Source: Ignavibacteriales bacterium (lineage in GTDB: Bacteria > Bacteroidota > Ignavibacteria > Ignavibacteriales > Melioribacteraceae). From it: DNA of 64,000 bases. Each line of letters begins with the position of its first letter. Positions within the stretch are counted from its first letter, which is position 1. Positions 47 to 52,691 of this stretch are shown in pieces. The position numbers and the translations under genes were made by a program. The notes beneath the pieces were generated by a model, which did not search any database, had not been told where the DNA came from, and was given only the letters and a program-made list of their open reading frames with translations. The stretch is from positions 1,736,001 through 1,800,000 of the forward strand of contig JAPLFG010000003.1 of NCBI GenBank assembly GCA_026390795.1, written 5' to 3'.

Positions 47-1076
47 CGATAAACTCCAAATCAAAGATTTGCGGGAAGAAATAACCGGTGTTCAAAAAGC
101 AGCAATGCTGATGGTTGCAATGAACGTAGAAGCTGCGGCTGCCGTTCTAAAACATCTTGATCCGAATGATGTTGAATATCTCTCGGCGGAAATTTCCAAA
201 GTAAAAAATATTTCTTCCAAGACTGCGGATACCGTTATAGAAGAATTCTACAACATGGTTACCGCACGCGAGTATGTTCTGGAAGGTGGACTCGATTTTG
301 CGCAAGCAGTATTGGAAAAAAGTTACGGATCTCCAAAAGCATTGGAAATTATAGATAAAATAAAACGTTTGACAACATTAAGAGGTTTTGACGTTCTAAA
401 AAAAGCTGAACCGGCACAACTAATTAATTTCTTGAACAAGGAACATCCTCAAACAATGGCTTTGATCCTCTCGCAATTAAGTCCGGACCAAACTGCCAAT
501 GCAATGAAAGAACTCTCGGAAGATTTGAGATTGGACATTGCTCATAGAATAGCTACACTTGGTAAAATTGCACCGCAGACATTAAAACAGATTGAACACG
601 TTGTAGATGAAATTGCCGGCGCTTCAATGAGCCAGTCCGTTGGAAAACTCGGCGGGGCAAAATGTCTTGCCGCAATTCTTAACCGAACCAATGTATCTAT
701 GGTTAAAGAAATTTTAGAGAAACTGGAAAATCTAGACCCGGAAACAACATACGAAGTAAAAAGATTGATGTTCATCTTTGATGAAATTATCAATATAAGT
801 GATAAAGATATTCAGAAGATCATGCGCGAGATAGATAGAAAAGATCTTGCGCTTGCTTTAAAAATTTCAGACGAGAGATTAAAAGAAAAGATATTCAAAA
901 ATATGAGTGAACGCGCCGCCGATCTTCTGAAAGAAGAACTTCAGTACATGGGAATGGTAAAGCTAAAAGAAGTAGAAGCCGCACAAGCACGTATAATTGA
1001 TTCTATTAAAGCGTTAGAAGAACAGGGAGAAATTTCTCTCAATCTGCGCGGCGGACCGGAAGAAGTATATGTCTAA
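30..1076 (+). CDS. fliG: flagellar motor switch protein FliG
   Basis: FliG is the rotor protein of the C-ring that touches the stators and generates torque. The 348-residue length is normal. The N-terminal part (TGVQKAAMLMVAMN, about 19-32) and the middle part with EHPQTMALILSQL (about 134-146) are diagnostic; the latter is the EHPQ motif of the middle domain. The C-terminal domain with charged helices (about 250-320) carries the torque residues in the family. The ATG at 30 overlaps fliF; a second ATG at 36 is possible. The gene overlaps fliH by 8 bases, suggesting coupled translation. Confidence 0.97.
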   Translation: MKMKSNDKLQIKDLREEITGVQKAAMLMVAMNVEAAAAVLKHLDPNDVEYLSAEISKVKNISSKTADTVIEEFYNMVTAREYVLEGGLDFAQAVLEKSYGSPKALEIIDKIKRLTTLRGFDVLKKAEPAQLINFLNKEHPQTMALILSQLSPDQTANAMKELSEDLRLDIAHRIATLGKIAPQTLKQIEHVVDEIAGASMSQSVGKLGGAKCLAAILNRTNVSMVKEILEKLENLDPETTYEVKRLMFIFDEIINISDKDIQKIMREIDRKDLALALKISDERLKEKIFKNMSERAADLLKEELQYMGMVKLKEVEAAQARIIDSIKALEEQGEISLNLRGGPEEVYV

Positions 1077-1689
1077 TGTAATTAAACTGAACTCTCGATC
1101 AACAAAAACGAATGTAAAAGTTTCTGGATATGGAACGGTAATTGAAAGCCAAAGTGAATCCGATCTCTTAAAAAAGCAGCTCGAAGATTATTATTCACTT
1201 GGATACCGTGAAGCTCAAGAAAAAACACGAAGAGATGTTGAACGTGAATACACAGACAAACTATTTCGCAAATATGAAGAAGTTTATAAAATTCTTCAGC
1301 AGTTCGATGAAAGCTTTGCCGAATACGAAAAGTCATTTGAAAAATTGGTGATTGAAACTGCGTTCGAGGTTGCGAAAAAAGTAGTGCAACGAGAAGTAAG
1401 TGAGAATACTATTATAAATGAAAATGTACGTTTTGCAATAAATAAAATAATGGGCGCAAACGAAATTCGATTAAAATTAAATCCAGCGGATGTTGAAGAA
1501 TTAAACGAGGCTACAAAAAAATTAATTCATGGAGGTTCGTTCAATAAAATTAAAATTGAACCCGACGAACGAATTGAATTAGGTGGATGCTTGATTGAAA
1601 CGGAGATTGGAAATGTTGACTCTAGGATATCAACACAATTAAGCGAAATGCAGAGGCAGCTTGAAGACAGTCTTATAAAGAAAAACTAA
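1069..1689 (+). CDS. fliH: flagellar assembly protein FliH
   Basis: FliH regulates the export ATPase FliI and links it to the C-ring. The 206-residue protein is rich in charged helices, with a long coiled coil at about 30-90. The C-terminal half (AFEVAKKVVQREVSEN, then LKLNPADVEEL and ELGGCLIETEIGNVDSRIS at about 100-190) has the pattern of the FliH/YscL/V-ATPase E-subunit family. It sits between fliG and fliI as expected, but an extra gene now separates it from fliI. The start overlaps the end of fliG by 8 bases. Confidence 0.93.
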   Translation: MSNVIKLNSRSTKTNVKVSGYGTVIESQSESDLLKKQLEDYYSLGYREAQEKTRRDVEREYTDKLFRKYEEVYKILQQFDESFAEYEKSFEKLVIETAFEVAKKVVQREVSENTIINENVRFAINKIMGANEIRLKLNPADVEELNEATKKLIHGGSFNKIKIEPDERIELGGCLIETEIGNVDSRISTQLSEMQRQLEDSLIKKN

Positions 1690-1720
1690 TAGAAAACTAA
1701 TTAATGGATAATTAAATGTT

Positions 1721-1790
1721 GCTAAAATAATTCAGAGTAACTCCGATAATATAGCCAGAGATTCACTGATAACAATGAAAAGGATTAAAG
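1721..1790 (+). repeat. diverged copy of the motE-like gene segment 4611-4680
   Basis: These 70 bases align without gaps to 4611-4680 with 9 mismatches by my count. The reading frame is preserved: both copies encode AKII, then SDNIARD, then TMK. In the 4611 copy this is the MgtE_N domain of the motE-like protein; here it lies before a lipoprotein gene and has no start codon of its own. It carries a full sigma-28-type promoter motif. It is best read as a duplicated gene fragment that now serves as a promoter. Confidence 0.85.
1723..1749 (+). promoter_or_regulatory. predicted sigma-28 (FliA) promoter of the lipoprotein gene
   Basis: TAAA at 1723-1726, 15 bases, then TCCGATAA at 1742-1749. This matches the enterobacterial FliA consensus TAAA-N15-GCCGATAA at 11 of 12 positions. 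It lies 58 bases before the preferred start codon at 1808. The same arrangement occurs before flagellin and at five other sites in the window. Confidence 0.7.
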
Positions 1791-1807
1791 ATCTGGCTGG
1801 AGTTGAA

Positions 1808-2269
1808 ATGAAAACTAAAATAGGCAACAAATTTCATATTGGAGTAATTGTCTTAACAATGATTCTAATGGCATCAATAACTGGTTGTAATTCAGACCCA
1901 ATAACACCTGTTGAAGAACAGTTTACGATTGACGGCGTATGGCAATCATATAAATTCGACGAAGGCTATGCATATCGTCACGTTCTTCTTCATTTGGTTC
2001 GTACCGGCAATACAATTACCGGTCAAGGTGAGTATGAGGATGGATTACCATTCACGATTGTTAATGGTCAATATACCAATTCAGATATTAGCTTCGCGTT
2101 CGTTATCGAATACACAAATGTGGGAAGAGTTGAAGGATTTTTTAACGGCAATATTAAAGGGAAAGAACTTGTCGGTCACTTAACATTAACATATTCACTG
2201 GGACAAGAACTTTACGCAATGCATTTAATTAAACAGTCTATTACTTATTTCCCAAAGCGAAGTAACTAG
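1808..2269 (+). CDS. small predicted lipoprotein inserted between fliH and fliI
   Basis: The preferred start (ATG at 1808) gives a 153-residue protein with a basic N-terminus, a hydrophobic stretch and a lipobox ending SITGC near residue 27, so it should be lipid-anchored. An upstream ATG at 1775 adds 11 residues encoded by the duplicated segment and would push the signal peptide inward. The mature part is beta-rich (GVWQSYKF, GNTITGQGEY, GFFNGNIKGKELVGHLTL) and resembles small lipocalin-like or immunoglobulin-like bacterial lipoproteins, but I recognise no family. It interrupts the usual fliH-fliI order and follows a sigma-28-type promoter, so co-expression with late flagellar genes is likely. 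Confidence 0.8.
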   Translation: MKTKIGNKFHIGVIVLTMILMASITGCNSDPITPVEEQFTIDGVWQSYKFDEGYAYRHVLLHLVRTGNTITGQGEYEDGLPFTIVNGQYTNSDISFAFVIEYTNVGRVEGFFNGNIKGKELVGHLTLTYSLGQELYAMHLIKQSITYFPKRSN

Positions 2270-2366
2270 AGAATTGTTCAATATTGAAAGAGAAATTGGA
2301 AAGGTTGAATTAAGATTTTTACGCAATTAATGAAAACTAAAAGATGGGCTGATAAAAAGAATTGAT

Positions 2367-3698
2367 ATGGACATCGCCGAACATTTAATAGATAAATATA
2401 AACAGATAATTGCAAAATCCGAGACTGTACGTGTTAACGGGAAAGTTATTGACGTAATAGGATTAGTTATTGTTTCTGTAGGACCCAATGCAGTTATGGG
2501 AGAAATCTGTTCAATCGTTGATCAAAAAGGAAATGAAGTCTGCAAGGCAGAAGTCGTTGGATTCAAAAATGGAAAAGTCCTCTCTATTGCTATCGGTGAA
2601 GTTCATAACATCTCTCCCGCATGCGAAATAAAAGCTTCCGGCAGAAACTTTTCTGTTGGTGTTGGTAAAGAATTACTAGGACGTGTAATTGACGGTTTAG
2701 GGAATCCTATTGACGGAAAAGGAGCGATTGATTATTCCTCATTCAGAGAATCTTACCGCGAACCGCCAAATCCTCTTGAAAGAAAAAGAATTTCTTCACC
2801 AATTCAAACTGGCGTGCGCACAATTGATGGTTTGTTAACAATCGGCAAAGGACAGCGTGCAGGAATATTTGCTGGAAGCGGTGTTGGTAAAAGCGTTTTA
2901 TTAGGAATGATTGCGCGGAACACGAGTGCAGACGTAAACGTAATTGCTTTGATTGGAGAACGGGGAAGGGAAGTCCGTGAATTTATTGAACGAGATCTTG
3001 GCGAAGAAGGATTACAAAAATCTGTTGTAATTGTTGCAACAAGCGATAAATCTCCTCTCATTAGAATGAAAGGCGCATATATAGGGACAACCATCGCTGA
3101 ATACTTTCGCGACCTTGGAATGGATGTTTTATTCATGATGGATTCCGTTACCCGTTTTGCAATGGCACAACGAGAAATCGGTTTAACAATTGGCGAACCA
3201 CCAACAACTAAAGGGTATACACCTTCTGTTTTTTCTCTTCTGCCAAAACTTCTTGAGCGTGCGGGTAATACCGAAAAAGGTTCTATAACAGGTCTTTATA
3301 CGGTACTTGTTGATGGTGATGATATGACCGAACCGATTGCAGATGCTGTGCGTTCCATTCTTGACGGCCACATCGTTCTTTCACGTAAACTTGCTAACCG
3401 CGGCCAGTATCCGGCAATTGATACGCTTCAAAGTGTAAGCAGGGTAATGCCGGATATTATTGATCACGATCATTATCAGCGTGCAATGAGGTTTAACGAA
3501 ATTATTGCTACATATAAAGAAGCAGAGGATATGATAAATATCGGCGCATATGTAAAAGGAAGCAATCCACAGATTGATCATGCTCTTTCAAAAATTACAC
3601 AATTACGAAGTTTTCTTAAGCAAGAAATATTTGAAAAAGCATTGTACGACGAATCGGTTGAAAGATTAAGCAATATTATTGAAGCATCAATAGTGTAG
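2367..3698 (+). CDS. fliI: flagellum-specific export ATPase FliI
   Basis: FliI powers or primes export through the flagellar type III secretion apparatus. The protein is 443 residues, the family length. The Walker A motif AGSGVGKS is at 169-176, and the Walker B region is VLFMMDSVTRFAMAQREI. The stretch GEPPTTKGYTPSVFSLLPKL is typical of FliI and of the F1-beta-like ATPases of type III systems. The N-terminal beta-barrel domain (about 18-90) and the C-terminal helical domain (about 350-443) are both present. It is followed after 7 bases by fliJ. Confidence 0.98.
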   Translation: MDIAEHLIDKYKQIIAKSETVRVNGKVIDVIGLVIVSVGPNAVMGEICSIVDQKGNEVCKAEVVGFKNGKVLSIAIGEVHNISPACEIKASGRNFSVGVGKELLGRVIDGLGNPIDGKGAIDYSSFRESYREPPNPLERKRISSPIQTGVRTIDGLLTIGKGQRAGIFAGSGVGKSVLLGMIARNTSADVNVIALIGERGREVREFIERDLGEEGLQKSVVIVATSDKSPLIRMKGAYIGTTIAEYFRDLGMDVLFMMDSVTRFAMAQREIGLTIGEPPTTKGYTPSVFSLLPKLLERAGNTEKGSITGLYTVLVDGDDMTEPIADAVRSILDGHIVLSRKLANRGQYPAIDTLQSVSRVMPDIIDHDHYQRAMRFNEIIATYKEAEDMINIGAYVKGSNPQIDHALSKITQLRSFLKQEIFEKALYDESVERLSNIIEASIV

Positions 3699-3705
3699 GT
3701 GAAAG

Positions 3706-4143
3706 ATGGCAAAATTTAATTATCGCTTTACAACTTTATTGAACGCAAAAGAAATTCTTGAAAAAAAGATAAAGGAAGAGATATCAATAATTAACAGAGA
3801 GATAGAAAACTTAAAACAACAGCGGAAGCTTATTGTTGAAGAAAGATTAAAAACCCAAAAAGAAATGGTTGAAAAGCCGCTGAAAGTCTCGGAATTCCAA
3901 AGCGCAAAAATGTATGATTCTATTTTAGAAAGGCAGATACAATTTATCGACAGAAAGACCGATATGTTAAAACTTAATAAAGAACAAAAACAGATTGAGC
4001 TTATTGAAAAGAAAAAAGAAGTTAAATCATTTGAGATACTCAAAGAAAATCAATTAGAAGCTTTTCTTCTTGATGAAAGAAAACAAGAATTAAAGGAACT
4101 TAACGAGATAGCCATTAGAAATTACAACGGAAATCAAAATTGA
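3706..4143 (+). CDS. fliJ: flagellar export protein FliJ
   Basis: FliJ is the central stalk-like coiled-coil protein of the export ATPase and an escort for chaperones. The 145 residues are almost entirely helical and charged. The opening KFNYRFTTLLNAKEILEKK is the usual FliJ start (F-x-L-x-x-LL-x-x-K). Identity is supported by position directly after fliI. The stop overlaps the TTG start of the next gene (TTGA). Confidence 0.9.
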   Translation: MAKFNYRFTTLLNAKEILEKKIKEEISIINREIENLKQQRKLIVEERLKTQKEMVEKPLKVSEFQSAKMYDSILERQIQFIDRKTDMLKLNKEQKQIELIEKKKEVKSFEILKENQLEAFLLDERKQELKELNEIAIRNYNGNQN

Positions 4144-4745
4144 AAGAGAAAATAATTTATATAGTTTCATTTCTTCTTGCGTTTGTTTTAATTACAGGGC
4201 TACTGATCTTTTTAAATTCCTCATACAAAAATATATTCGCATTCGATTTTTCTCCAATCAACAATTCTGTGGCTGCAGTAAAAAAAGAAGAGCCGAAAAA
4301 TCAACCGCCGGTTCAACCAAAAGACACAACTGCAGTACTTCCTGTTGTTAAAGATACCGTCGCACAAAAAATCGATTCAACAAAATTAAAACAGAACCTT
4401 GCTGCTATTAAAGACAGCATTGCTGTTAAGAAAAATGGTAAAGAAAAGGCGAAAAAAACTGAACCACAACCGGTTAATAATGCTATTGTAAAAGCAGAAC
4501 CGCCAAAAATTGCCGAACCGGATAAAAATAATACTAAAAAAGACAGCGTCTATCAGGCATGGATAAAAAACACCGTAAAATTGTATGAAACAATGGATAC
4601 AAGAAAAGCGGCTAAAATAATTGAAGGTTACTCCGATAATATAGCCAGAGATTTACTGTTAACAATGAAAAAGAAAAAAGCGGCAGAAATATTAGCTGAA
4701 TTTAAGCCTCAAACGGCTACTAGAATAATAAGTGCGACTCAATGA
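4140..4745 (+). CDS. MgtE_N-domain membrane protein, MotE/YlxF-like
   Basis: The start is TTG at 4140, overlapping the fliJ stop. Residues 5-25 form one membrane segment. Residues 40-130 are a Pro/Lys/Ala-rich linker and residues about 135-201 an MgtE intracellular-type helical repeat (MDTRKAAKII, then ILAEFKPQTATRIISA). Proteins of this design sit between fliJ and fliK in many bacteria (YlxF in Bacillus, MotE in rhizobia, where it acts as a chaperone for a motility protein). The role here is inferred from this position. Bases 4611-4680 within the gene are duplicated at 1721-1790 and include a sigma-28-type promoter motif. Confidence 0.75.
   Translation: MKEKIIYIVSFLLAFVLITGLLIFLNSSYKNIFAFDFSPINNSVAAVKKEEPKNQPPVQPKDTTAVLPVVKDTVAQKIDSTKLKQNLAAIKDSIAVKKNGKEKAKKTEPQPVNNAIVKAEPPKIAEPDKNNTKKDSVYQAWIKNTVKLYETMDTRKAAKIIEGYSDNIARDLLLTMKKKKAAEILAEFKPQTATRIISATQ
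4611..4680 (+). repeat. source copy of the 70-base segment repeated at 1721-1790
   Basis: This segment lies in the MgtE_N domain of the motE-like gene and keeps full coding function there, so it is the likely parent of the diverged copy between fliH and fliI. Confidence 0.8.
4613..4639 (+). promoter_or_regulatory. predicted internal sigma-28 promoter upstream of fliK
   Basis: TAAA at 4613-4616, 15 bases, then TCCGATAA at 4632-4639, inside the motE-like gene and about 100 bases before fliK. The match is identical in form to the promoter before flagellin. It could give late expression of fliK, flgD and the hook genes. Coding constraint could also explain the bases, so confidence is moderate. 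Confidence 0.5.
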
Positions 4746-7306
4746 ACATTAATACTTTTTTCTTAGATAAACTTATGGCTGGAGAGCAAGCAGTTGCTCT
4801 TGGTTCGAAAAAATTATCGTCGCCTACTAATTTATTTTCGGATATAATTAAAGTCTTTGAGCAGGAAAGCGAACAAAACTCCACAACTAGCGATAGCGCA
4901 AACAATTTAAATCTGGCTTCACAAAATATATTCCAATTACCTGTTAACGTTATTGAATGCAACAGTACCAAGCTGCAGGCACTCATTAAATTTATTGATT
5001 CGTTTATGGCCGATCCGCAATTGTCGGTTAAAGCAACGGAAGTAAAGCATGATCTTCAATCTGTAGTAATTAATAAAAAGCAATTTCTTCTATCATCCGG
5101 AAGTTTAGAAAATTTTATTAATGGGCTGGTTCAGAATCTTGGACTAAATAATATTAGCGATTTGAAAACAGTCCTTTCACAAAACGCGATTGATGAAAAT
5201 ACTTTTAGCGGTGTCAAAGATCTTAATGTGAAAAATGATAATGATAAACAAAGTTCCAGAAAGGAAATTGAGAACAATGTTAAAACGGATGATGCTTTTA
5301 CAGAAGCCGAAAACATTGTGCAGTCGCTACTCCAATACCTTTCCGAGAACAAATCATTGTCGCTTTCTGTTAAGAACGGTAAAGACAAATTGAATATCAA
5401 TTTTTACAATTTGCCTGAAGATAATATAGAGACTGAATTCAATTTAGAAAAACTTTCAGCAGATTTTAATAAGAGCAGTAAAGAATTTAATGCCGCATTG
5501 GCGGATATCGCTAAAGAACAAGGGAAAGAAAAAACAGTAACTGCCGCCACTTTAAAAGGTTTAGGAAAAAATCCAGCCGATTTTAATTCTTCACCGTTAG
5601 TTCAAAATGATCTAGATATTTCTAAATCCCAAACCGATAGTACCAAACCGGCAGAATCTGCAGATCCGGTTAATCCGGCTACTTCGATAAATCAGAATAA
5701 TAATGTTTACAAGACGGAAGTAATTGAAATTACATTTAATCCGGCAGTACAATCGAAAATTTTGAATTCAACTGGATCTCAGACGAAAATTTATCAAATG
5801 CCCAATTACGGACAGGCTGATTCATCAAAGAGCACGAGCATATTTAATAATGATCTATCTAAGAAGGAGTTCGAATTATTTGATGCCGGATTTAGATTGA
5901 GAAATAATTTTGCGGCTCAATTAAATGCACTGAAGAACCAGGATAATAATGTACCGGTTGCAAACTCATCTGCTAAAACGGAAGCTCCAAATCCACTCTT
6001 GGTACAACAATCCGTCCCAATTGTTAAAGTAGTGGAAGCAGGGAACAATAAAACAGTAAGTACGGACAGCATAAATACCTTGCAGCAGACAATAAAAAGT
6101 TCGCCTGAAAAAGGAAACATTGTAAATGAATCTAAGTCATTGATAAACGATCTTAAAGTGACTATAGAAGGATCTGAATCTGCAAATAAAAATTCATCCG
6201 TAAAAGAAAGTGTTGTAACCGATTCGAAGACATTGTTGAACGATCTTAAAGAAACTTTAGTAGGACCCGGAGCGGCAAATAAAAATTTTGCCGTAAAAGA
6301 AAGTGTTGTGAAAGAAATCAAAGTTTTGTTAAACGACCTTAACGGAAAAATAGAAAGTTCTGAACTGACAAAATCTTCTCCTCAAAAAGATAAAACAATA
6401 TTTTCCGCACCGACTTTAGAAATGAACAAAGATGCATCACCAACAAAGAATGACATTCATTCTAAATTTCAAGACGGTAGAACAATAATACCGGATGCAC
6501 CAAAATTGTATAAACAAGCTTCGGCAATTTCTGAAGCAACTCCTTTCAATGGAGAAAAATATTCTGCTGCAATTGAATCCCCAAAAGAAAAAGCTTTTGT
6601 ACAGGAAGTTAAAGATCTTTTGATGAGCGGAATGCCTCCTCAAAAAATTTCAACCGCCGATGAAAAAGTAAAAGTTGGAAAAGAAACGGATGCCGTAAAA
6701 TTAGTCTCCGGTGAAAATGTAAAAAATGATAAAGCTGAAGTCAAAGAAGCGAACGGCAAAACAGCCGATGAAAAAGAATCTTTCCAAAATAAACCGAACG
6801 ATAACTTTAAAAATATATTGCAAGGCACCGAACAAACAAGAGGGATTGACGCCGATAAATTTAAAATGATGAATGATGCCAAACTGCCTAATGAACCGAT
6901 GAAATTGATCAAACCGGCTGAAATTATTTCCGAGTTTTCAAAGATCATTCAAGCCGGTGAAAAGCAGAGTATGACCTTTCAATTGACACCGGAAAATTTA
7001 GGCAAAGTGAAGTTGATAGTTGATTTAGTCAACAATAATATAAGTACGCGTATAGAAGTTGAGAACGATCAGGTGAAACAGTTCATTCAATCCAATATTG
7101 AACAGCTTAAACAGAATTTGCAATCATCCGGAGTTCATCTCAGCAATGTGAATATAAGTTTGGCTGAATCCGAACAAAAATTTGCAAAGACATTTACACC
7201 GCGTAGAAAAATGGGAGAAAAAATTTCCAAAATAAAAGAAGGCGATGATTCAACACGCCGATCTCAAAAATCATTAGGCTACAATACTTACGAATATTTA
7301 GCATAG
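4742..7306 (+). CDS. fliK: flagellar hook-length control protein FliK
   Basis: FliK measures hook length and switches export specificity from hook to filament proteins. At 854 residues it is about twice the Salmonella protein (about 405). The first 730 residues are low-complexity, rich in Lys, Asn, Ser and Glu. The C-terminal Flg_hook domain is intact at about 735-820 (MTFQLTPENLGKVKLIVDL, then RIEVENDQVKQFI and LQSSGVHLSNVNI). A roughly 40-residue unit built on LLNDLK and KESVV repeats about three times at residues 463-545. ATG overlaps the stop of the preceding gene. Confidence 0.93.
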   Translation: MNINTFFLDKLMAGEQAVALGSKKLSSPTNLFSDIIKVFEQESEQNSTTSDSANNLNLASQNIFQLPVNVIECNSTKLQALIKFIDSFMADPQLSVKATEVKHDLQSVVINKKQFLLSSGSLENFINGLVQNLGLNNISDLKTVLSQNAIDENTFSGVKDLNVKNDNDKQSSRKEIENNVKTDDAFTEAENIVQSLLQYLSENKSLSLSVKNGKDKLNINFYNLPEDNIETEFNLEKLSADFNKSSKEFNAALADIAKEQGKEKTVTAATLKGLGKNPADFNSSPLVQNDLDISKSQTDSTKPAESADPVNPATSINQNNNVYKTEVIEITFNPAVQSKILNSTGSQTKIYQMPNYGQADSSKSTSIFNNDLSKKEFELFDAGFRLRNNFAAQLNALKNQDNNVPVANSSAKTEAPNPLLVQQSVPIVKVVEAGNNKTVSTDSINTLQQTIKSSPEKGNIVNESKSLINDLKVTIEGSESANKNSSVKESVVTDSKTLLNDLKETLVGPGAANKNFAVKESVVKEIKVLLNDLNGKIESSELTKSSPQKDKTIFSAPTLEMNKDASPTKNDIHSKFQDGRTIIPDAPKLYKQASAISEATPFNGEKYSAAIESPKEKAFVQEVKDLLMSGMPPQKISTADEKVKVGKETDAVKLVSGENVKNDKAEVKEANGKTADEKESFQNKPNDNFKNILQGTEQTRGIDADKFKMMNDAKLPNEPMKLIKPAEIISEFSKIIQAGEKQSMTFQLTPENLGKVKLIVDLVNNNISTRIEVENDQVKQFIQSNIEQLKQNLQSSGVHLSNVNISLAESEQKFAKTFTPRRKMGEKISKIKEGDDSTRRSQKSLGYNTYEYLA

Positions 7307-7313
7307 GTGAATT

Positions 7314-7991
7314 ATGGTAGATCCAATTACAGGTACTTCGACCAGCACTACACAGCAGACCACTAGCAAATCATCACTGGGTAAAGACGATTTTATGAAA
7401 CTGATGATTTCGCAACTGCAAAATCAAGATCCTCTAAATCCGATGGATGGGACAGCATTTTCAGCGCAACTCGCACAGTTCAGTTCTCTGGAACAACTTT
7501 CTAATTTGAATACTTATATGAAACAGAGCATTGATGCAAATGCAACGTTAACTCAATCAATTAATAACACTCTTATAACGGGATTAATTGGTAAGGATGT
7601 TAAATTGAGCGGGGGAGCTATAAAGGTTAACGGTCAGGACGGTATAACGTTGGGCTATACATTGCCTGTAGAAGCAAAGACTGCTCAGATTAAAATATAT
7701 AATGAAAGCGGTGGCCTCGTAAAAACTATCGATGGAAACACTAACTCAGGCACCAGTAAACTTTCCTGGGATTTAACCGATAATAACGGTAACAAATTAC
7801 CTAATGGTAATTATAAATTTGAAGTTGATGCAGTGAACACAAAAGGCGAGAGCATGACGTTAGATATTTTCAAAGTTGGAACAATAGATGGTGTTCGCTT
7901 TACAGATCAGGGAACAGTTCTTCTTGTTGGCGGAGCTGAATATTCTCTTGCGGATATTGCTGAAGTTCTTAATAACCAGAAACCACAATAA
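7314..7991 (+). CDS. flgD: flagellar hook-capping scaffold FlgD
   Basis: FlgD caps the growing hook and is then discarded. The 225-residue length fits. The N-terminal signature [20 protein letters not shown] lies at about 24-43, followed by [13 protein letters not shown]. The C-terminal half is the FlgD immunoglobulin-like and tudor-like region ([17 protein letters not shown], then [19 protein letters not shown]). It is seven bases downstream of fliK. A sigma-28-type motif lies within its coding region at 7757-7783. Confidence 0.96.
7757..7783 (+). promoter_or_regulatory. possible internal sigma-28 promoter upstream of flgE
   Basis: TAAA at 7757-7760, 15 bases, then ACCGATAA at 7776-7783, in the flgD coding region. 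It matches 11 of 12 consensus positions and is followed by T, as are the other strict matches. It could drive the flagellar operon protein gene and flgE. Part of the motif encodes the conserved TDNNGN segment of FlgD, so chance is a real alternative. Confidence 0.4.
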
Positions 7992-10506: not shown

Positions 10507-10533
10507 TAAATATATTTAGGATTATTTCGATAA
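10507..10533 (+). promoter_or_regulatory. predicted sigma-28 promoter of the T9SS-secreted protein
   Basis: TAAA at 10507-10510, 15 bases, then TTCGATAA at 10526-10533, followed by TAATG. It lies in non-coding DNA 80 bases before the start of the secreted-protein gene. The site before the unknown gene at 41682 has the same -10 sequence and the same following bases. Confidence 0.7.
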
Positions 10534-10612: not shown

Positions 10613-13600
10613 ATGAAATTTTTAAAAAAATATTACTTAACGATATTAATTATTTTTACAGCTGGATCGATCTTTGCTCAAGTGGCAGTTGTTACACCTA
10701 ACGGCGGTGAAAGTTTAGAAGTCGGATCTACTTATCATATCACTTGGACAAGTACCGGCGTAACCAACGTTAAACTTGAGTATAGTGTTGACAGCGGAAA
10801 TAATTGGGTTTCAATAATTGCTTCCACCGCCGATGCCCCCAAGGATTATTCTTGGACTGTACCGGCAACAATCTCTGCAACCTGTGAAATACAAATAAGT
10901 GATGCAGATGTTCCTGCAACTATTGATGTATCCGATGCTGTCTTTTCAATTGTGAAACCTTCGGCACCTGCGCCTAATCTACCTCTTGATGAAGCTAAAA
11001 AACAATTATTAAGTCCAACAATTTCGTGGGCTGCTGTTCCTTCTGCTACACAATATTTGCTGGAAATATCGGAAGATCCGAATATTGTGATAAACAAAAC
11101 ATCGGCCACAGTAAACGCCCCCGCAATAAGCTACGCAGCTGCAGTTTTATCATATAATAAAACGTATTATTGGCATGTAAGAGCGGTTGTCGGAGGAATA
11201 AATTCTGATTTTTCAACCACGAGATCATTTGAAACGAAAATTTCAACTCCAACTTTATCCACACCATCAGATTTAAGCACCTGGATTGCGACAAATGCAA
11301 ATTTAACATGGAACGCTGTTGGCGGAGCCGAGAACTATACATTGCAAGTATCAACTGATATAGCTTTTCCAAACTTTGTTTATAATAATGCTGCTCTGGT
11401 TGGAACGAGTCAAGCAATGAATGGATTGTCGAATAATCAAACGTACTATTGGAGAGTTAAAGCAACTCAAGCAGACGGCAATGAAAGTGATTTTTCAACA
11501 ATAAGATCATTTTCAACAATTCCGGCTCCTACATTAACATCGCCGGCTGATCTTGCTGCAAATTATAAATTCACAAAGGTCACTTATAATTGGGCAGTTG
11601 TGGCAAACGCCGTTTCATATGAATTGAAAGTTAGTCAAAATGCAAATTTTACTGTAGCTGAAACTAAAACTTACACAAGTGCGACTAATACTTACACGCC
11701 CGTCGATTTACTTGTGTACGCGAGAACATATTACTGGAAAGTTAATGCAAAAGTTGGAACTATAAATAGTGATTATTCACCGACATATTCATTTACCGTG
11801 GGTACACCCTCGAGCTTAATAAATGATGGTGATGCAATAGTTTCATTCGATCATACAAAAGGAACAATTTCAGAATTAACATTCCTTCACGGTTCCGGAA
11901 ATCAATTACTGAATACCTCGTTGAATACAAAAAGCAAAGCTGGTCTTGGAAGAATCTTAAATGAAGAAAATTCAAAACTTGTTGCATGGACGGAAGCTGC
12001 CGGAAGTAGAGTCTATACATATGAAAATACTTTATATGGTTCCAAAACTTTGACTATTACCTGGAATGCAACCGGAATTGTATTAAACATGGTACTGAAT
12101 TTAGACGCAAATAAAGCGGCTGTTTTATCACCATCCTGGCTGCCTGGAGGAGCTACAGGACCATTACATGACTTTATTGTTTACGCCGGTTCTAACGATT
12201 TATTGTCAAAAGCTACTTTAACTTATCCAGGTGTTGCCACAACTCTTTTTACCGGAGGAACCGTATTAACAGCTATGTATGACGATAGATATGATGAATT
12301 TTTTGGTTTCAAAAGTGCAACTGAGGCAAATACTAAAATTCAACAAGCAATAGCTTTTGGACCCACTTATACTTACGACAAGAACGCAGCACCGCAAGTT
12401 ATTAATTTGAGTTTTGCGGTTATGAGTAAATCCGACTTTTTTACATGGGCTAATAAAAAGTACATAATAGTTAATGCACCTACGATCGCACAAAAAATAT
12501 TAGATCAATCAACTCAAACATTAAAATGGGATTATTTTGGTTTTGCTACCGATGTTGACATAAAGCTTTCAATCGATGGCGGGACAACTTTTCCTCTATC
12601 ACCCACTTTTGTTTCCGCATTAAATGATGGAAGTGAAGATTATACTTTACCGGATCTCTCCGCAAATGTCCCTTTAAATAATTGCAAGATACAAGTATCA
12701 TCAGCCGGAGTTGAAGGAAATTCAGCTCCATTTTCGATCGTTAAAGAAGCTACATCGGTTATATCTATAGCTGATAATTTTACTGTATCCCCATCCGGAG
12801 ATGTAACTGTACCAATCGTCATATCACCGGCAGATAACACTTTGGTGAATGCACTTGATATAAGATTGATGTATGATAAAGAAATTTTGAGTTATAAGAG
12901 ATCAACAGTAGACGCTGCGTTCGATAATTGGACAATGGATGTAACCAATAATGCATCAGGTGGTTTTCTGCAAATCGGTGGTTTCAAAAATGATGATGGT
13001 TTAGCAATTAATACTCAAAATACAATTGTATTGGTTACGTTCACGGCAAAATCTACTGCAAGAGTGGGTGTACAAACCGGACTGAAGGTAAACAACTTAT
13101 ATCTATCACTTGCTGATGAATCTGCCAAAGCGCTTTCTGTTTCAGGTGTGGATGGATTAGTAACTATTTACAGTGGAGTATCCGGGTATTTCCGTTATAT
13201 AATCAACAAAAAACCAATCTATGTAACAGGCGCCATTAAATTCGAAAACACCGAAATGAGTATTTCTATTGACGGTAATACAAACGCAGTTGGAAAATTT
13301 GATTTCTCAAATATCAAACCAGGAAGCGATTTTGTACTTACACCTAAAACGGATCTTAGTCTGCCAGACCCAATTACATTAGCTGTTGATGCCGTTGATG
13401 CACGCAAAGCATTCGATGCCAGAGAAGGCGGCACTACACCTTTCCAAAATGATCTACAAAAAATGGCTGCCGATATTAATGGAGATGGAATTATCAATTC
13501 TACGGATGCTTTTGCAATATTACAAATTTCTACAGGAGCTCTTACAGCTGCCGATTTTAATGAAAGTAAATGGATCTTTGTAGACTCTACATTCAAGCTG

Positions 13601-14500
13601 ACATCATCTAATTGGCAGACTGCCCCCAACACCATCTCTTACACACCGCTCGATACATTGAAAGCTAGACAAACTTTTTGGGGAGTGATAAGAGGCGATG
13701 CCGATGGGGATTACTCTCCTTCAACCATTGTTGCTTTATCAAAAATCTTTGCTGCAACGCAAGTTTTAGACCCCAATACAGTAATGTATAGTACACCGCA
13801 AAGAATGACGATTAAGCCCGGCGATACATTATCCTTGCCGATTTATATAAAACTAAACGGAAGCAAAATCGCCGCGTTCAATATATCAGTTGAAGTGAAT
13901 CCTGAAATTTTAGCTTATACAAATAAGTACAGCATAGGTAATTCTATACCTGCCGGTACCGGCTGGAGTTTTAGTACGCATTTTGACTCGAACGGCAAAC
14001 TTAACATAGGCGCAACTGATTTCGTAGGAGCCATCGACCCGATAAGTCAAGATGGATTGATTGCTTTCTTTAAGTTTGTTGTTAAAGGAAATCCAAAACT
14101 TGGAGATTCATGCGGAGTAAAAATATTAAATGCGTCTGCCTCAGATGCAAAGTATATAAACCTTTCTGTTTCATCGAGTGGCGGGCAGGTAATTGTCTCC
14201 AACTTAACCGATGTTTCTGAAAATAATAATATTGATTTCAATTATTCTCTGAACCAAAACTATCCAAATCCGTTTAACCCTTCTACTTTTATTGAGTACA
14301 GCATAAAAAATGAAGGATTAGTTAAGGTAGATGTCTATAATGTATTGGGAGAATTAGTTATTAGTCTTGTGAATAAGCAGCAGAACGCTGGAAAATATAA
14401 AGTTGAATGGAACGCTTCTCAATGCGCTTCCGGAATTTATTTTTACAGAATTAATAGCGGCGAATTTGTTCAGACGCGAAAAATGCTCTTAATCAAATAG
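10613..14500 (+). CDS. large multidomain T9SS-secreted protein with FN3, cohesin and dockerin-like parts
   Basis: A signal peptide (about 1-22) ending FAQ is followed by a PNGGE-type beta-module (25-115) and three FN3-like repeats, each closing with TYYW or KTYYWHV (about 118-395). After an unassigned region come a second PNGGE-like module, a cohesin-like domain (about 720-860), DINGDGIINSTDAF and DADGDYS dockerin-like calcium loops (about 950 and 1030) and a second cohesin-like domain. The C-terminus (about 1208-1295) is a type A T9SS sorting domain with NYPNPFNPST and a final RKMLLIK. The product should be exported across the outer membrane and retained at, or released from, the surface. 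Its site inside the flagellar locus and its sigma-28-type promoter suggest a motility-linked surface role, which is inference. Confidence 0.9.
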   Translation: MKFLKKYYLTILIIFTAGSIFAQVAVVTPNGGESLEVGSTYHITWTSTGVTNVKLEYSVDSGNNWVSIIASTADAPKDYSWTVPATISATCEIQISDADVPATIDVSDAVFSIVKPSAPAPNLPLDEAKKQLLSPTISWAAVPSATQYLLEISEDPNIVINKTSATVNAPAISYAAAVLSYNKTYYWHVRAVVGGINSDFSTTRSFETKISTPTLSTPSDLSTWIATNANLTWNAVGGAENYTLQVSTDIAFPNFVYNNAALVGTSQAMNGLSNNQTYYWRVKATQADGNESDFSTIRSFSTIPAPTLTSPADLAANYKFTKVTYNWAVVANAVSYELKVSQNANFTVAETKTYTSATNTYTPVDLLVYARTYYWKVNAKVGTINSDYSPTYSFTVGTPSSLINDGDAIVSFDHTKGTISELTFLHGSGNQLLNTSLNTKSKAGLGRILNEENSKLVAWTEAAGSRVYTYENTLYGSKTLTITWNATGIVLNMVLNLDANKAAVLSPSWLPGGATGPLHDFIVYAGSNDLLSKATLTYPGVATTLFTGGTVLTAMYDDRYDEFFGFKSATEANTKIQQAIAFGPTYTYDKNAAPQVINLSFAVMSKSDFFTWANKKYIIVNAPTIAQKILDQSTQTLKWDYFGFATDVDIKLSIDGGTTFPLSPTFVSALNDGSEDYTLPDLSANVPLNNCKIQVSSAGVEGNSAPFSIVKEATSVISIADNFTVSPSGDVTVPIVISPADNTLVNALDIRLMYDKEILSYKRSTVDAAFDNWTMDVTNNASGGFLQIGGFKNDDGLAINTQNTIVLVTFTAKSTARVGVQTGLKVNNLYLSLADESAKALSVSGVDGLVTIYSGVSGYFRYIINKKPIYVTGAIKFENTEMSISIDGNTNAVGKFDFSNIKPGSDFVLTPKTDLSLPDPITLAVDAVDARKAFDAREGGTTPFQNDLQKMAADINGDGIINSTDAFAILQISTGALTAADFNESKWIFVDSTFKLTSSNWQTAPNTISYTPLDTLKARQTFWGVIRGDADGDYSPSTIVALSKIFAATQVLDPNTVMYSTPQRMTIKPGDTLSLPIYIKLNGSKIAAFNISVEVNPEILAYTNKYSIGNSIPAGTGWSFSTHFDSNGKLNIGATDFVGAIDPISQDGLIAFFKFVVKGNPKLGDSCGVKILNASASDAKYINLSVSSSGGQVIVSNLTDVSENNNIDFNYSLNQNYPNPFNPSTFIEYSIKNEGLVKVDVYNVLGELVISLVNKQQNAGKYKVEWNASQCASGIYFYRINSGEFVQTRKMLLIK

Positions 14501-24209: not shown

Positions 24210-24446
24210 ATGAACAAGATAATTCTTCAAACCGGGTTGCTGATATTTTTCTTTTCGGTAATCTATTTTACACAACGGGGAATGCCTCTTGAAAAAATTC
24301 TACTCAATTCATTTGTCATCTTTATCATAGTTACTTCTATGCTTAGCATAATAGTAATTGGAATAATTAAAGCAATTAATAGAAACTCGCTTAATAAATT
24401 GAGCGACTATTCAGAGAACTTAGCAGGAAAAACAAAAAATGAGTAA
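24210..24446 (+). CDS. small two-helix membrane protein of unknown function
   Basis: The ATG at 24210 follows AAGGA at a suitable distance and gives 78 residues; an in-frame TTG at 24180 would add ten polar residues without a ribosome site. Two membrane segments (about 5-22 and 31-55) are followed by a short basic tail. I recognise no family. It is placed between flhG and fliA and overlaps fliA by 8 bases, so it is probably co-translated with the sigma factor. Confidence 0.7.
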   Translation: MNKIILQTGLLIFFFSVIYFTQRGMPLEKILLNSFVIFIIVTSMLSIIVIGIIKAINRNSLNKLSDYSENLAGKTKNE

Positions 24447-25071
24447 TACAGCTCTTTGGACCTCGTACAAACAAAATCCATCAACGGATTTGAAGAAACA
24501 GATTGTTCTAAATTATGTAAATCTTGTTCACTACGTAATTCACAAGACAAATCTGATTCAAAACGGAATTCTAGACCGCCGAGATTTTTTCCAATTTGGC
24601 ATTGAAGGATTAAGCGAGGCCATAGACCGTTTCGATCCCGATTTCGGGACCAAATTTGAGACGTATGCAATTCAGCGTATACGCGGAAAAATTTATGATG
24701 AGCTCCGCAAATACACGGATAAATTTGAACATGCAGTTCAAGGCGATAGCTGTACAAGTTATTCTTTGTCCAGTATCTCCTTGAATCAAACCGTAAACGA
24801 TGATGACGGTATGCAATATCAAGAGCTTATCCCAAGCAGCGCAGAAAAACCCGATGCCATTCTGGAAACAAAAGATTTAAAACAAAGATTGGTTGATATT
24901 ATAAAAGAACTAGGCGAAAGGGAAAGAACAATTTTGAGCTTGTATTACTACGAAGAATTGAACTACAAAGAAATTGCACAGGTGTTAAATATTACGGTTT
25001 CTCGAGTATCGCAGATTCATTCTAAAATAATTAGCGCACTTAAACTTAAGCTGGCAGAGTACAATGGTTGA
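24439..25071 (+). CDS. fliA: flagellar sigma factor sigma-28 (FliA)
   Basis: FliA directs RNA polymerase to late flagellar promoters and is held back by FlgM until the hook is finished. Region 2 (RRDFFQFGIEGLSEAIDRFD, then KFETYAIQRIRGKIYDELR) and region 4 (LGERERTILSLYYYEELNYK, then EIAQVLNITVSRVSQIHSK) are complete. Length 210 is slightly short for the family (about 240). Seven strict sites of its expected consensus are in this window, and flgM is at 52440. Confidence 0.96.
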   Translation: MSNTALWTSYKQNPSTDLKKQIVLNYVNLVHYVIHKTNLIQNGILDRRDFFQFGIEGLSEAIDRFDPDFGTKFETYAIQRIRGKIYDELRKYTDKFEHAVQGDSCTSYSLSSISLNQTVNDDDGMQYQELIPSSAEKPDAILETKDLKQRLVDIIKELGERERTILSLYYYEELNYKEIAQVLNITVSRVSQIHSKIISALKLKLAEYNG

Positions 25072-41636: not shown

Positions 41637-41663
41637 TAAAATAAATGCCTGTTCTTTCGATAA
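41637..41663 (+). promoter_or_regulatory. predicted sigma-28 promoter of the gene at 41682
   Basis: TAAA at 41637-41640, 15 bases, then TTCGATAA at 41656-41663 followed by TAATG. It sits in the 47-base gap after the receiver-DHp gene, 18 bases before the next start codon, with GCGGAGG between. Confidence 0.7.
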
Positions 41664-41681: not shown

Positions 41682-42332
41682 ATGTTAGAAAAAATTGTAA
41701 ATATTTCTGCCGGGTCTGATTATAAACAATCTTCAAAACCCGGTAAACAATCAGCTGTATCGAACTATATTAATAGTTATCATGCAGTAAGCAACGATTC
41801 TATTTCGCTTTCTCCTGCCACAGCATTTCTCTCGGGTATCGGTTGGAAACTTAAAAAAATCCAAAATGAAAAAGAGAAACTGCACATTGTTTTTTCGTTT
41901 GATGATTTTGATTTCTCAACGGTAATCAATCCAGCGGAGATAATTCAAATTCCGCGCATCGAATATGAAATAAAATATTCTATTAGTTCATACACGGGTG
42001 TAGTTAATATGACTATAAAAGTTGCGTCACCTTTGAATTTAGAAGGATCCGAAAGTCTTCAGATTAAACTGCACCTGAATGAATTGAATAAATTTTTCGG
42101 TTCAATTATTTCGACTTTCGGATTTAGATCGGATGTCTCCTCAAATACATACGAAGTGCAAAAATACTTTTTGGAAATGGAAAGCGCGCTTCAAATGGAA
42201 TTCAATTATTTAAATAAAGGGCTAATTAATTTTCTGGAAAAATATCTCTCGTGTAAAATTAATTTAAAAAACGATGAGAGTAATACCAGACATATGTTAG
42301 AACTGAAATTATTGCAGATAAATAAAACTTAG
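41682..42332 (+). CDS. unknown 216-residue protein under a sigma-28-type promoter
   Basis: I recognise no family. Residues 1-45 are polar and Ser-rich, with SNDSISLSPATAFLSGIGWK at about 36-55. The rest is mixed alpha/beta with no membrane segment, signal peptide or cysteine-rich site; the C-terminal third is helical (YFLEMESALQMEFNYLNKGL). It opens a new transcription unit together with the PAS kinase gene 3 bases downstream. A role in late flagellar function is inferred from the promoter alone. Confidence 0.8.
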   Translation: MLEKIVNISAGSDYKQSSKPGKQSAVSNYINSYHAVSNDSISLSPATAFLSGIGWKLKKIQNEKEKLHIVFSFDDFDFSTVINPAEIIQIPRIEYEIKYSISSYTGVVNMTIKVASPLNLEGSESLQIKLHLNELNKFFGSIISTFGFRSDVSSNTYEVQKYFLEMESALQMEFNYLNKGLINFLEKYLSCKINLKNDESNTRHMLELKLLQINKT

Positions 42333-48199: not shown

Positions 48200-48226
48200 T
48201 AAACTTTTCAAAAGAGTCTCCGATAA
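48200..48226 (+). promoter_or_regulatory. sigma-28 (FliA) promoter of flagellin
   Basis: TAAA at 48200-48203, 15 bases, then TCCGATAA at 48219-48226, followed by TATT. It matches 11 of 12 positions of TAAA-N15-GCCGATAA and lies 84 bases before the flagellin start, leaving room for the two-hairpin leader. Flagellin is the classical sigma-28 target, so this site anchors the other calls. Confidence 0.88.
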
Positions 48227-48309: not shown

Positions 48310-49854
48310 ATGGCTTTTTCAGTAAACACAAATCTAGGCGCTCTTCAAGCGTACAACGCATTGGCAAAAGTTAATGCAGAGACACAAAAAGCACAGTTAC
48401 GTCTTGCTACAACAAAAAGAATCAACTCAGTAGCAGATGATACATCTGGCTTTAACATCGGTAAACAAATGGAGGCTTCGGTATTAAAACAGAAAGCTCA
48501 GTTGAACAACGTTTCTTCAGCAAAAAATTTATTAGCAACAGCAGAATCCGCTCTTCAGCAGATCAATGATAAATTGAATCAGATTTCTGCTAAATACACA
48601 GACGCACAGGATCCGTTGAAAGATCAAGCAAGTATTGCAAAAGATATTACTACTCTAGCAGTAGAAATAAAATCAATTCTTCAGACAACTAATATCAACG
48701 GTACAAAGCTGTTAGTAAAACAAACAGACGTTAACTTAGCAGCAACAGACAAATCACTTGATGTAGGCGGCGCAGCTTTCTCTGTTGATTTTGGTGGAAA
48801 GATGGATACAGTAAATCTACTTACTAAAATAGCAAGCTTAACCTTAGCAGATGCCAGCGGAACAACCGCCGGTGAAACAGCTGCAGGTTTAGCCGCTGCA
48901 AGAGCATTTGTAGTTGGAGGCTTTTTAACAGACGTTAATACAAAACTTTCAGAATCCAATGTATCTGCTGCTAACGTAACAGCATTTGCTGATGCATTAA
49001 CCGCAAGATATGATTCAGATATCGCAGCTGGACTTAGTGTAAGTACAGCATTAGATAACGCATTTACAGCAGGTAAAACCGCAGTAGGCGGAACAACCGT
49101 AGCTGACGCTTTAGCACAGGGTGTTCAATCAACCGGTACCGTAACTTACGATGATGCAGCTGCACTTACCGCAGTTAATACTGGTTATACTAATGCAACA
49201 GCAGCAAAAACCGCCGCAAATAGTCTCATGGCGAACATTGCTACTAAATTAGGTGAATATGGTGTTAGTGCTGCTCAAGTTCAAGCATTTTCAACAGCAT
49301 TCGGTGGCTTTATGGCTACGCAGACAGATGCTGCCAATTTTGACACTGGTGCTCATTCTTTAACAGCAGTAACTGCAGCTTTAGCCGCAGGCGCAGCTGC
49401 GTTAACTGTAGCTGTAGGTGGCGATGCAAATCAGGCTCTTATTGATGCCGCTACCGCATCTGGTGTTCAATCCACCGGTACAGCAGCTTTTAGTTATATT
49501 TCTCAACAAGCTGATCTTACAACTGCATATGATGGCGGAGTAGCTGGTTATGTTCCTTCTGCTAATGATACAGCTTCTGTTATCACTGCTGCACAAGATG
49601 TTAGTGTTGCTTCAGCTGCAATCCGTGATTCTCTTGGTAGAATTGGTAACTTGAGTCAATCAATCGATTCAAGAAGCGAATTCTTAACGTCTTCAATTGC
49701 AAACAGTACAGCTTCTATCTCCAGTATATTCGACGCTGATATGGCTGCTGAACAATTGAATGCTACAAAAGGCAACATTTCTGGTCAAATTGGTACAGCA
49801 ATGTTATCACAATTGAATTCAGCTCCACAACAACTCTTATCATTATTCCGTTAA
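48310..49854 (+). CDS. fliC: flagellin
   Basis: Main filament subunit. The N-terminal D0/D1 region (FSVNTNLGALQAYNALAKVN, then KRINSVADDTSGFNIGKQME) and the C-terminal D1/D0 region (DSLGRIGNLSQSIDSRSEFL, then ending QQLLSLFR) are standard. The outer region (about 165-430) is Ala/Thr-rich and holds two related units of about 90 residues, each ending GVQSTGT. The protein has many Ser/Thr and no Cys, which suits glycosylation. It has its own sigma-28 promoter, structured leader and terminator. Confidence 0.97.
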   Translation: MAFSVNTNLGALQAYNALAKVNAETQKAQLRLATTKRINSVADDTSGFNIGKQMEASVLKQKAQLNNVSSAKNLLATAESALQQINDKLNQISAKYTDAQDPLKDQASIAKDITTLAVEIKSILQTTNINGTKLLVKQTDVNLAATDKSLDVGGAAFSVDFGGKMDTVNLLTKIASLTLADASGTTAGETAAGLAAARAFVVGGFLTDVNTKLSESNVSAANVTAFADALTARYDSDIAAGLSVSTALDNAFTAGKTAVGGTTVADALAQGVQSTGTVTYDDAAALTAVNTGYTNATAAKTAANSLMANIATKLGEYGVSAAQVQAFSTAFGGFMATQTDAANFDTGAHSLTAVTAALAAGAAALTVAVGGDANQALIDAATASGVQSTGTAAFSYISQQADLTTAYDGGVAGYVPSANDTASVITAAQDVSVASAAIRDSLGRIGNLSQSIDSRSEFLTSSIANSTASISSIFDADMAAEQLNATKGNISGQIGTAMLSQLNSAPQQLLSLFR

Positions 49855-52104: not shown

Positions 52105-52439
52105 TGAAAAAGATAGAAATTAAAATTGAACGGACTAATAAATTGTTGGATAAAATCTCCGATAATCTTGACAACCTTATAGTTGAAACTTTCGATTCCG
52201 CATCCCCTGTCATCGCAAAAAACATGAAAGCACTGCAAAAAGCCAAAAATGAGATTATTGATGAATTTGGGCTGGAAGAGTTTTTAAAATATGGGTCGGA
52301 TTTGTTAAATAGGGCTAAACTAATCGGAAGAAAGTTCGATAATATAATAGGGATATTCACCCATGAAGAGGAAAAGCTTGAAAAAGAACTTTTAAGCTAT
52401 ATGAGCAAGAAAAAGATTGCAAATTATTTGAGGTATTAG
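52104..52439 (+). CDS. small helical protein after fliD, FliT-like position
   Basis: The 111 residues are charged and helical (TNKLLDKISDNLDNLIVETF, EEEKLEKELLSYMSKKK) with no membrane segment. I cannot match it to a family. Gene order fliS-fliD-X suggests a FliT-like chaperone for FliD, but this rests on position only. Its coding region contains a strict sigma-28-type motif for flgM. Confidence 0.65.
   Translation: MKKIEIKIERTNKLLDKISDNLDNLIVETFDSASPVIAKNMKALQKAKNEIIDEFGLEEFLKYGSDLLNRAKLIGRKFDNIIGIFTHEEEKLEKELLSYMSKKKIANYLRY
52139..52165 (+). promoter_or_regulatory. predicted internal sigma-28 promoter of flgM
   Basis: TAAA at 52139-52142, 15 bases, then TCCGATAA at 52158-52165, followed by T. 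It is in the gene after fliD and 275 bases before flgM. In enteric bacteria flgM is also transcribed from a sigma-28 promoter, which gives feedback on FliA. Confidence 0.55.
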
Positions 52440-52691
52440 ATGGAAATCAGAGGCGTTTCAAACAATCCGCTCTTTGTTAATCAAGCAAAGAACAACAAAC
52501 CTGAAGAAGCTCAAAATCAGGATGCAAAGGATAAAATTGTGATTTCTTCAGAAGCACGCGATTTAGCCAAGGTTGATCTTAGTTCTGCCAGGTTAGAAGA
52601 GATCCGTGACCGAATTAACTCTAAATTTTACGATTCCGATGAAGCATTAAACAAAGTTGCAGAAAAGATTTTATCAGAAGTTTCTAAATAA
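52440..52691 (+). CDS. flgM: anti-sigma-28 factor FlgM
   Basis: FlgM holds FliA inactive and is secreted when the hook is complete. The 83-residue protein has a disordered polar N-terminus and a C-terminal FliA-binding helix region with the family pattern ARLEEIRDRINSKFYDSDEA followed by LNKVAEKILSEV (about 48-80). It begins on the base after the preceding stop. Confidence 0.85.
   Translation: MEIRGVSNNPLFVNQAKNNKPEEAQNQDAKDKIVISSEARDLAKVDLSSARLEEIRDRINSKFYDSDEALNKVAEKILSEVSK

Follow-up and report, generated by a model that had tools for sequence, protein, structure and literature searches.

We put at about 75% the probability that the lipoprotein gene inserted between fliH and fliI acquired its promoter by duplication. 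A piece of the nearby motE-like gene, bearing a putative internal sigma-28 promoter, would have been copied ahead of the lipoprotein gene, giving it FliA-driven expression late in flagellar assembly. Capture of an internal promoter by duplication was the core of the original prediction, and three lines of evidence support it: the co-occurrence of fragment and lipoprotein gene, the likeness of the motif to the genome's own flagellin promoter motif, and constraint on the motif within motE. The features of the locus, in the window (the whole stretch of 64,000 nucleotides that was analysed), are these:

1069..1689, plus strand: fliH, left neighbour of the insert (PF02108, E 2.1e-23)
1704..1790, plus strand: non-translated copy of a piece of motE coding sequence (61/70 core identity; no third copy in the genome; shared by all three sister genomes)
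1723..1749, plus strand: putative captured sigma-28 promoter, TAAA-N15-TCCGATAA, identical in three sister genomes
1808..2269, plus strand: gene for a 153-aa lipoprotein, modelled as an 8-stranded beta barrel, with orthologues in two sister genomes
2367..3698, plus strand: fliI, right neighbour of the insert (ATP-synt_ab and T3SS_ATPase_C domains)
4140..4745, plus strand: motE-like gene (MgtE_N at 25.5 bits, slightly below the 25.9 cut-off)
4592..4680, plus strand: source segment in the motE-like gene (BLAST match, 70-base alignment)
4613..4639, plus strand: sigma-28 motif within motE, ahead of fliK, in 30/37 aligned genomes
4742..7306, plus strand: fliK, behind the motE motif (Flg_hook domain, E 1.3e-17)

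The region reads fliH, fragment, lipoprotein, fliI, fliJ, motE-like, fliK, flgD, TIGR02530 gene and flgE, the names flgD and flgE being assigned by sequence and position rather than by family search. As had been claimed, 1721-1790 is a gapless copy of 4611-4680, with exactly 9 mismatches in 70 bases. BLAST widens the duplicate to 1703-1790 / 4592-4680 at 83% identity, the motE side being one base longer, and places the copy ~2.9 kb upstream of its source. When the whole 4.08 Mb genome was searched, the fragment and the motE segment were the only two copies. The fragment differs from motE by a 1-base indel in all three carrier genomes and is untranslated, because of that indel and because translation from its ATG would run into stops in both sister genomes. 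Derivation of the fragment from another lineage is not favoured; the nearest motE is that of the sister clade (47-49/54 bases), a small margin because the next-nearest motE genes reach 45-47 of 54 bases.

To place the insert among relatives, we surveyed 57 genomes, this one included, in which 39 fliH-fliI junctions were examined. The insert, 677-679 bases long, is present at three junctions, those of this genome, G010 and G005, and at the remaining 36/39 the two genes overlap or lie no more than 57 bases apart, with no lipoprotein gene and no room for the insert. A relative with the lipoprotein and without the fragment had been named as the finding that would speak against capture. Across the 57 genomes a close orthologue of the lipoprotein occurs in three, with the fragment ahead of it in every case. 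At the junction the two are thus always together and never one alone (3/39), although the carriers are only three genomes and represent one event.

The identity of the motif was judged against the flagellin promoter of the same genome, for which the following features served:

24439..25071, plus strand: candidate FliA sigma factor, 210 aa (Sigma70_r2 and r4 domains clear, region 3 weak)
48200..48226, plus strand: flagellin promoter motif used as yardstick, TAAA-N15-TCCGATAA, 110 bases before the flagellin start (flagellin domains found)

Boxes and spacer at 1723 and at 4613 both equal the motif at 48200. In the window, TAAA-N14..16-TCCGATAA occurs 4 times against 0.14 expected in shuffles, the duplicate pair accounting for two of these; relaxing the -10 to NNCGATAA gives 8 matches, all on the plus strand. 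Among 30 flagellin loci (this genome's among them, drawn from 39 genomes with a match), 27 match at least 10/12 positions in the interval from -160 to -60, compared with 0.51 in dinucleotide shuffles. The loci without the motif are L090, L103 and L104, and L097 has a 16-base spacer. Like the classical sigma-28 flagellin promoter, the motif before this genome's flagellin has TAAA, a 15-base spacer and NNCGATAA. The E. coli sigma-28 -10 consensus is GCCGATAA; unlike the classical promoter, the -10 of this clade is mostly TNCGATAA, mostly with T at the first base and with a variable second base. The candidate sigma factor sits in the flagellar cluster, and TIGR02479 matches it partially at 92 bits, under its cut-off, as it does in all 57 genomes. 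We infer recognition of the captured promoter by FliA, transcription from it and late timing. The flagellin itself (48310-49854) has 514 residues, compared with mostly 266-430 among the flagellin open frames listed, which suggests a large additional domain in its middle.

The copied segment is constrained at its source. The motE-like gene always lies between fliJ and fliK where both sides are seen, and in the sister genomes its motif stands 129 bases before fliK. It could be aligned in 37 of the 39 loci, the other two ending at contig edges. TAAA-N15-NNCGATAA is found in 30/37 genomes, and it is present wherever the MotE sequence is compatible with it (30/30). Under a null that fixes the protein of each genome and draws codons from that genome's usage, 1.19 would be expected; this null takes the genomes to be independent, which they are not. 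The codons GCT AAA ... TCC GAT AAT are used in nearly all genomes (GCT for 32/34 Ala, AAA for 33/33 Lys, TCC for 29/30 Ser, GAT for 35/35 Asp and AAT for 32/32 Asn). The Ala preceding the motif uses all four codons, and in other Ser columns of motE TCC accounts for 1/21 to 3/13. Of the seven genes without the motif, four still have one of the two boxes intact, and in the other three neither is intact. The motif Ser is replaced in 7 genomes, and CGATAA is nevertheless kept in 6 of them (3 Asn, 1 Thr, 1 Ala and 1 of 2 Pro). In a sliding test along motE (36 rows, L059 being omitted for a gap), the motif offset scores 29/29 and its immediate neighbours 27-28; elsewhere the best offset in the same codon phase reaches 14/22 and the best in any phase 22/29. 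Locking at synonymous sites across the order makes it likely that motE holds an old intragenic sigma-28 promoter. Within fliK, 6090-6368 consists of three head-to-tail 93-base repeats with 63-71% identity to the reference copy.

Comparable motifs are found inside flgD and ahead of an FlgM-like gene:

7757..7783, plus strand: intragenic sigma-28-like motif in flgD (ACCGATAA), in 18/21 genomes
52316..52342, plus strand: sigma-28-like motif within the open reading frame 52104-52439, 124 bases ahead of the FlgM-like gene
52440..52691, plus strand: FlgM-like gene, 83 aa, adjoining fliD (PF04316, E 0.0027, and TIGR03824, E 0.0072, both under cut-offs)

In this genome and 20 relatives, TAAACTTT-type boxes with NNCGATAA occur in flgD of 18/21, all 18 whose protein permits them, against 1.18 expected; the three without the motif include the sister genome G010 (TCCGATGA). 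Before flgM, a motif at 124-146 bases is present in 16/17 relatives' loci with a detected flgM (another three loci had none and are not counted among the 17), and a homologue of the motif-bearing frame was detected in 12/16 loci. A second perfect TAAA-N15-TCCGATAA lies at 52139-52165, near the start of the frame before flgM. It was set aside as the flgM promoter in favour of 52316, because the conserved site in relatives is 124-146 bases before flgM. Taken across the order, these embedded motifs suggest that fliK and the hook genes receive late transcription too.

Two further sites in the window have the form TAAA-N15-TTCGATAA. One, at 10507-10533, is 106 bases before a gene for a 1295-aa protein (10613-14500) with cohesin, Ig-like and Por secretion-tail domains, a secreted surface protein for which sigma-28 control is possible. 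The other, at 41637-41663, is 45 bases before a 216-aa open reading frame (41682-42332) with no Pfam match.

The lipoprotein gene almost certainly starts at 1808, judging from the aligned orthologues. A start at 1775, the ATG inside the fragment, was rejected; its frame soon stops in both sister genomes. By eye, a hydrophobic N-terminus leads to a lipobox with C27, invariant in the three orthologues, which share 85-86% identity. Their dN/dS is 0.10-0.14, and the lipoprotein is under purifying selection. The barrel model is of moderate confidence (pLDDT 70). Searches against Pfam, NCBIfam and PDB sequences gave no match, and Foldseek with the model returned nothing at E 0.001 or better, the best being nitrobindin at E 0.012. 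No further close members were found among the 57 genomes or 294 genomes of the class, and a scan of GTDB genomes gave no close member beyond the two sister MAGs.

Distant homologues are present in G001, G016 and G018 (27-29% identity; profile match probability 95.6%, E 1.2e-8). They occupy an unlinked locus without the fragment, between genes that we take to encode RsmI and a lysine aminotransferase. In G001 and G016 a TAAAC-N14-NNCGATAA motif stands 77-92 bases ahead of the start. The G018 homologue has one with a 16-base spacer ~80 bases ahead, which the script missed and which was read by eye. Sites of the TAAAC type are rare, at 11 in G001 and 12 in G016 over both strands (2 and 7 for a reversed-pattern control), and the rate is therefore ~2.5e-4 per 150 bases of one strand. 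The presence of separate sigma-28-like motifs ahead of these homologues speaks for late-flagellar control of the lipoprotein family, and this small family probably belongs to the late flagellar programme. All 6 lipoprotein carriers have fliI (chance ~0.1), which argues weakly for dependence of the lipoprotein on flagella, because 40/57 genomes have fliI anyway. Weak lipoprotein matches were also obtained in G030, G025 and G013, plus a second one in G000, and a motif scan before the G030 gene found none. In G018, a TAAA-N15-TACGATAA at L177 3457-3483 lies on the strand opposite to the lipoprotein gene, directed toward rsmI.

At the rsmI locus, G000 and G005 have no lipoprotein gene and ~100 bases between the neighbours. 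In G010 the aminotransferase match was looked for and none was found, and the wide rsmI gap of G003 holds no lipoprotein remnant among its open reading frames. The pattern fits a gene move with promoter exchange, and we infer that the move was from the rsmI locus. It is also possible that the lipoprotein at fliH-fliI is an independent gain, as the low identity to the rsmI-locus homologues would allow.

The original prediction had leaned on a contrast between motif bases that were kept and flanking coding positions that had mostly drifted. The motif is identical between the copies, none of the 9 mismatches falling in TAAA or TCCGATAA bases. The drift did not hold up: 49/58 non-motif bases are also identical, and the chance of 0 mismatches in 12 motif bases is P ~0.16, which is not significant. 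Among the three carriers, 10/70 columns of the fragment vary, compared with 33/100 in the spacer after the lipoprotein gene (P=0.007 against the fragment) and 19/53 fourfold sites (P=0.009). The motif bases are identical in all three, and their difference from the rest of the copy (0/12 vs 10/58 varying, P=0.19; 0/12 vs 7/42, P=0.15) is not significant. Whatever slows change in the copy, be it constraint or partial gene conversion with motE, therefore extends beyond the motif, and the conservation of the fragment could serve something else or reflect such conversion.

The lack of a significant difference between the motif bases and the rest of the copy counts in favour of an alternative in which the fragment is a recombination scar from the arrival of the lipoprotein gene, with the motif there by chance and expression by operon read-through alone. 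The gene is co-directional in the operon, no plus-strand terminator-like site was found at 1600-5000, and read-through from upstream could express the lipoprotein anyway. However, the untranslated copy changes more slowly than spacer and fourfold sites, the motif within the 87 copied bases looks like a promoter throughout the order, and the distant homologues also have sigma-28-like motifs. We consider a scar unlikely. With no terminator-like site in that interval, transcripts may run on past the lipoprotein gene, raising a second alternative in which the copied promoter is active for late transcription of fliI, fliJ and motE, and the lipoprotein is a passenger. Embedded sigma-28-like motifs are common in the operon (motE and flgD), but a passenger would not be expected to be under purifying selection, its unlinked homologues have sigma-28-like motifs with no fliI behind them, and 36/39 junctions manage without such a promoter; this alternative seems to us quite improbable. 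It is more improbable still that RNA structure, translation or an unknown regulator locks the motE codons and that the duplicate carries that element, since, although constraint on motE in the three sister genomes exceeds the motif (0/18 third positions vary in the 54-base stretch vs 16/49 outside), the comparison of 37 genomes places the locking chiefly in the -35 and -10 codons and shows variation in the codons next to them, and the same boxes with a 15-base spacer stand before flagellin, before flgM and inside flgD.

Under promoter capture, codons in the 3' part of motE would double as an old sigma-28 (FliA) promoter, from which additional late transcripts of fliK and the genes downstream probably start. 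In the ancestor of the three sister species, ~87 bases of motE would have been duplicated into the fliH-fliI junction, and the lipoprotein gene would have arrived together with the duplication or shortly before or after it. The non-coding copy would then serve as the lipoprotein promoter, with a predicted start at ~1756 and a leader of ~52 bases, so that the lipoprotein would be made with flagellin once FliA is free, on top of any operon read-through. A broader proposal, which we regard as evenly balanced, is that sigma-28 promoters within the codons of motE, flgD and the pre-flgM gene feed fliK, the hook genes and flgM throughout the order, and that one of them was copied to re-equip a late-flagellar lipoprotein gene that had moved into fliH-fliI, leaving its own sigma-28 promoter behind. 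In enteric bacteria, hook completion normally releases FliA from FlgM. The motE and flgD motifs nevertheless suggest FliA feedback on fliK and the hook genes in this order. If the proposed capture is true, it would be a natural case of bacterial promoter capture, in which a coding-embedded promoter was duplicated, released from coding constraint and retained purely as a promoter.

The lipoprotein bears a loose likeness to small calycin-like or avidin-like lipoproteins, with a predicted 8-stranded barrel behind a lipoprotein signal; unlike those, it has no match among Pfam, NCBIfam or PDB sequences. Intragenic FliA promoters in proteobacteria were reportedly the subject of a 2018 study by Fitzgerald. 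In the accessible open-access literature we found no paper on sigma-28 promoters in this bacterial group or on promoter capture from motE, and flagellar genes, without promoters, are mentioned for Melioribacter (PMC3534657). Coding-embedded sigma-28 promoters are already known from E. coli. There, a FliA promoter inside flhC drives motAB-cheAW (PMC4183435) and also makes the MotR small RNA (PMC10578931). More than half of the E. coli FliA sites are intragenic, with detectable RNA changes at 5/30 intragenic sites (PMC4183435); that most such sites are without RNA change counts against an active promoter here. The flhC promoter resembles the present case in that a putative sigma-28 promoter lies within a flagellar coding sequence, ahead of other genes. 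The present case differs in its hosts, which are motE, flgD and the pre-flgM open reading frame, in its phylum, in order-wide codon conservation, and in that its promoters are predicted from sequence. It differs also in that one copy has been duplicated in front of a new gene. What is new relative to flhC is thus deep codon-level conservation in another phylum, together with the duplication of such a putative promoter.
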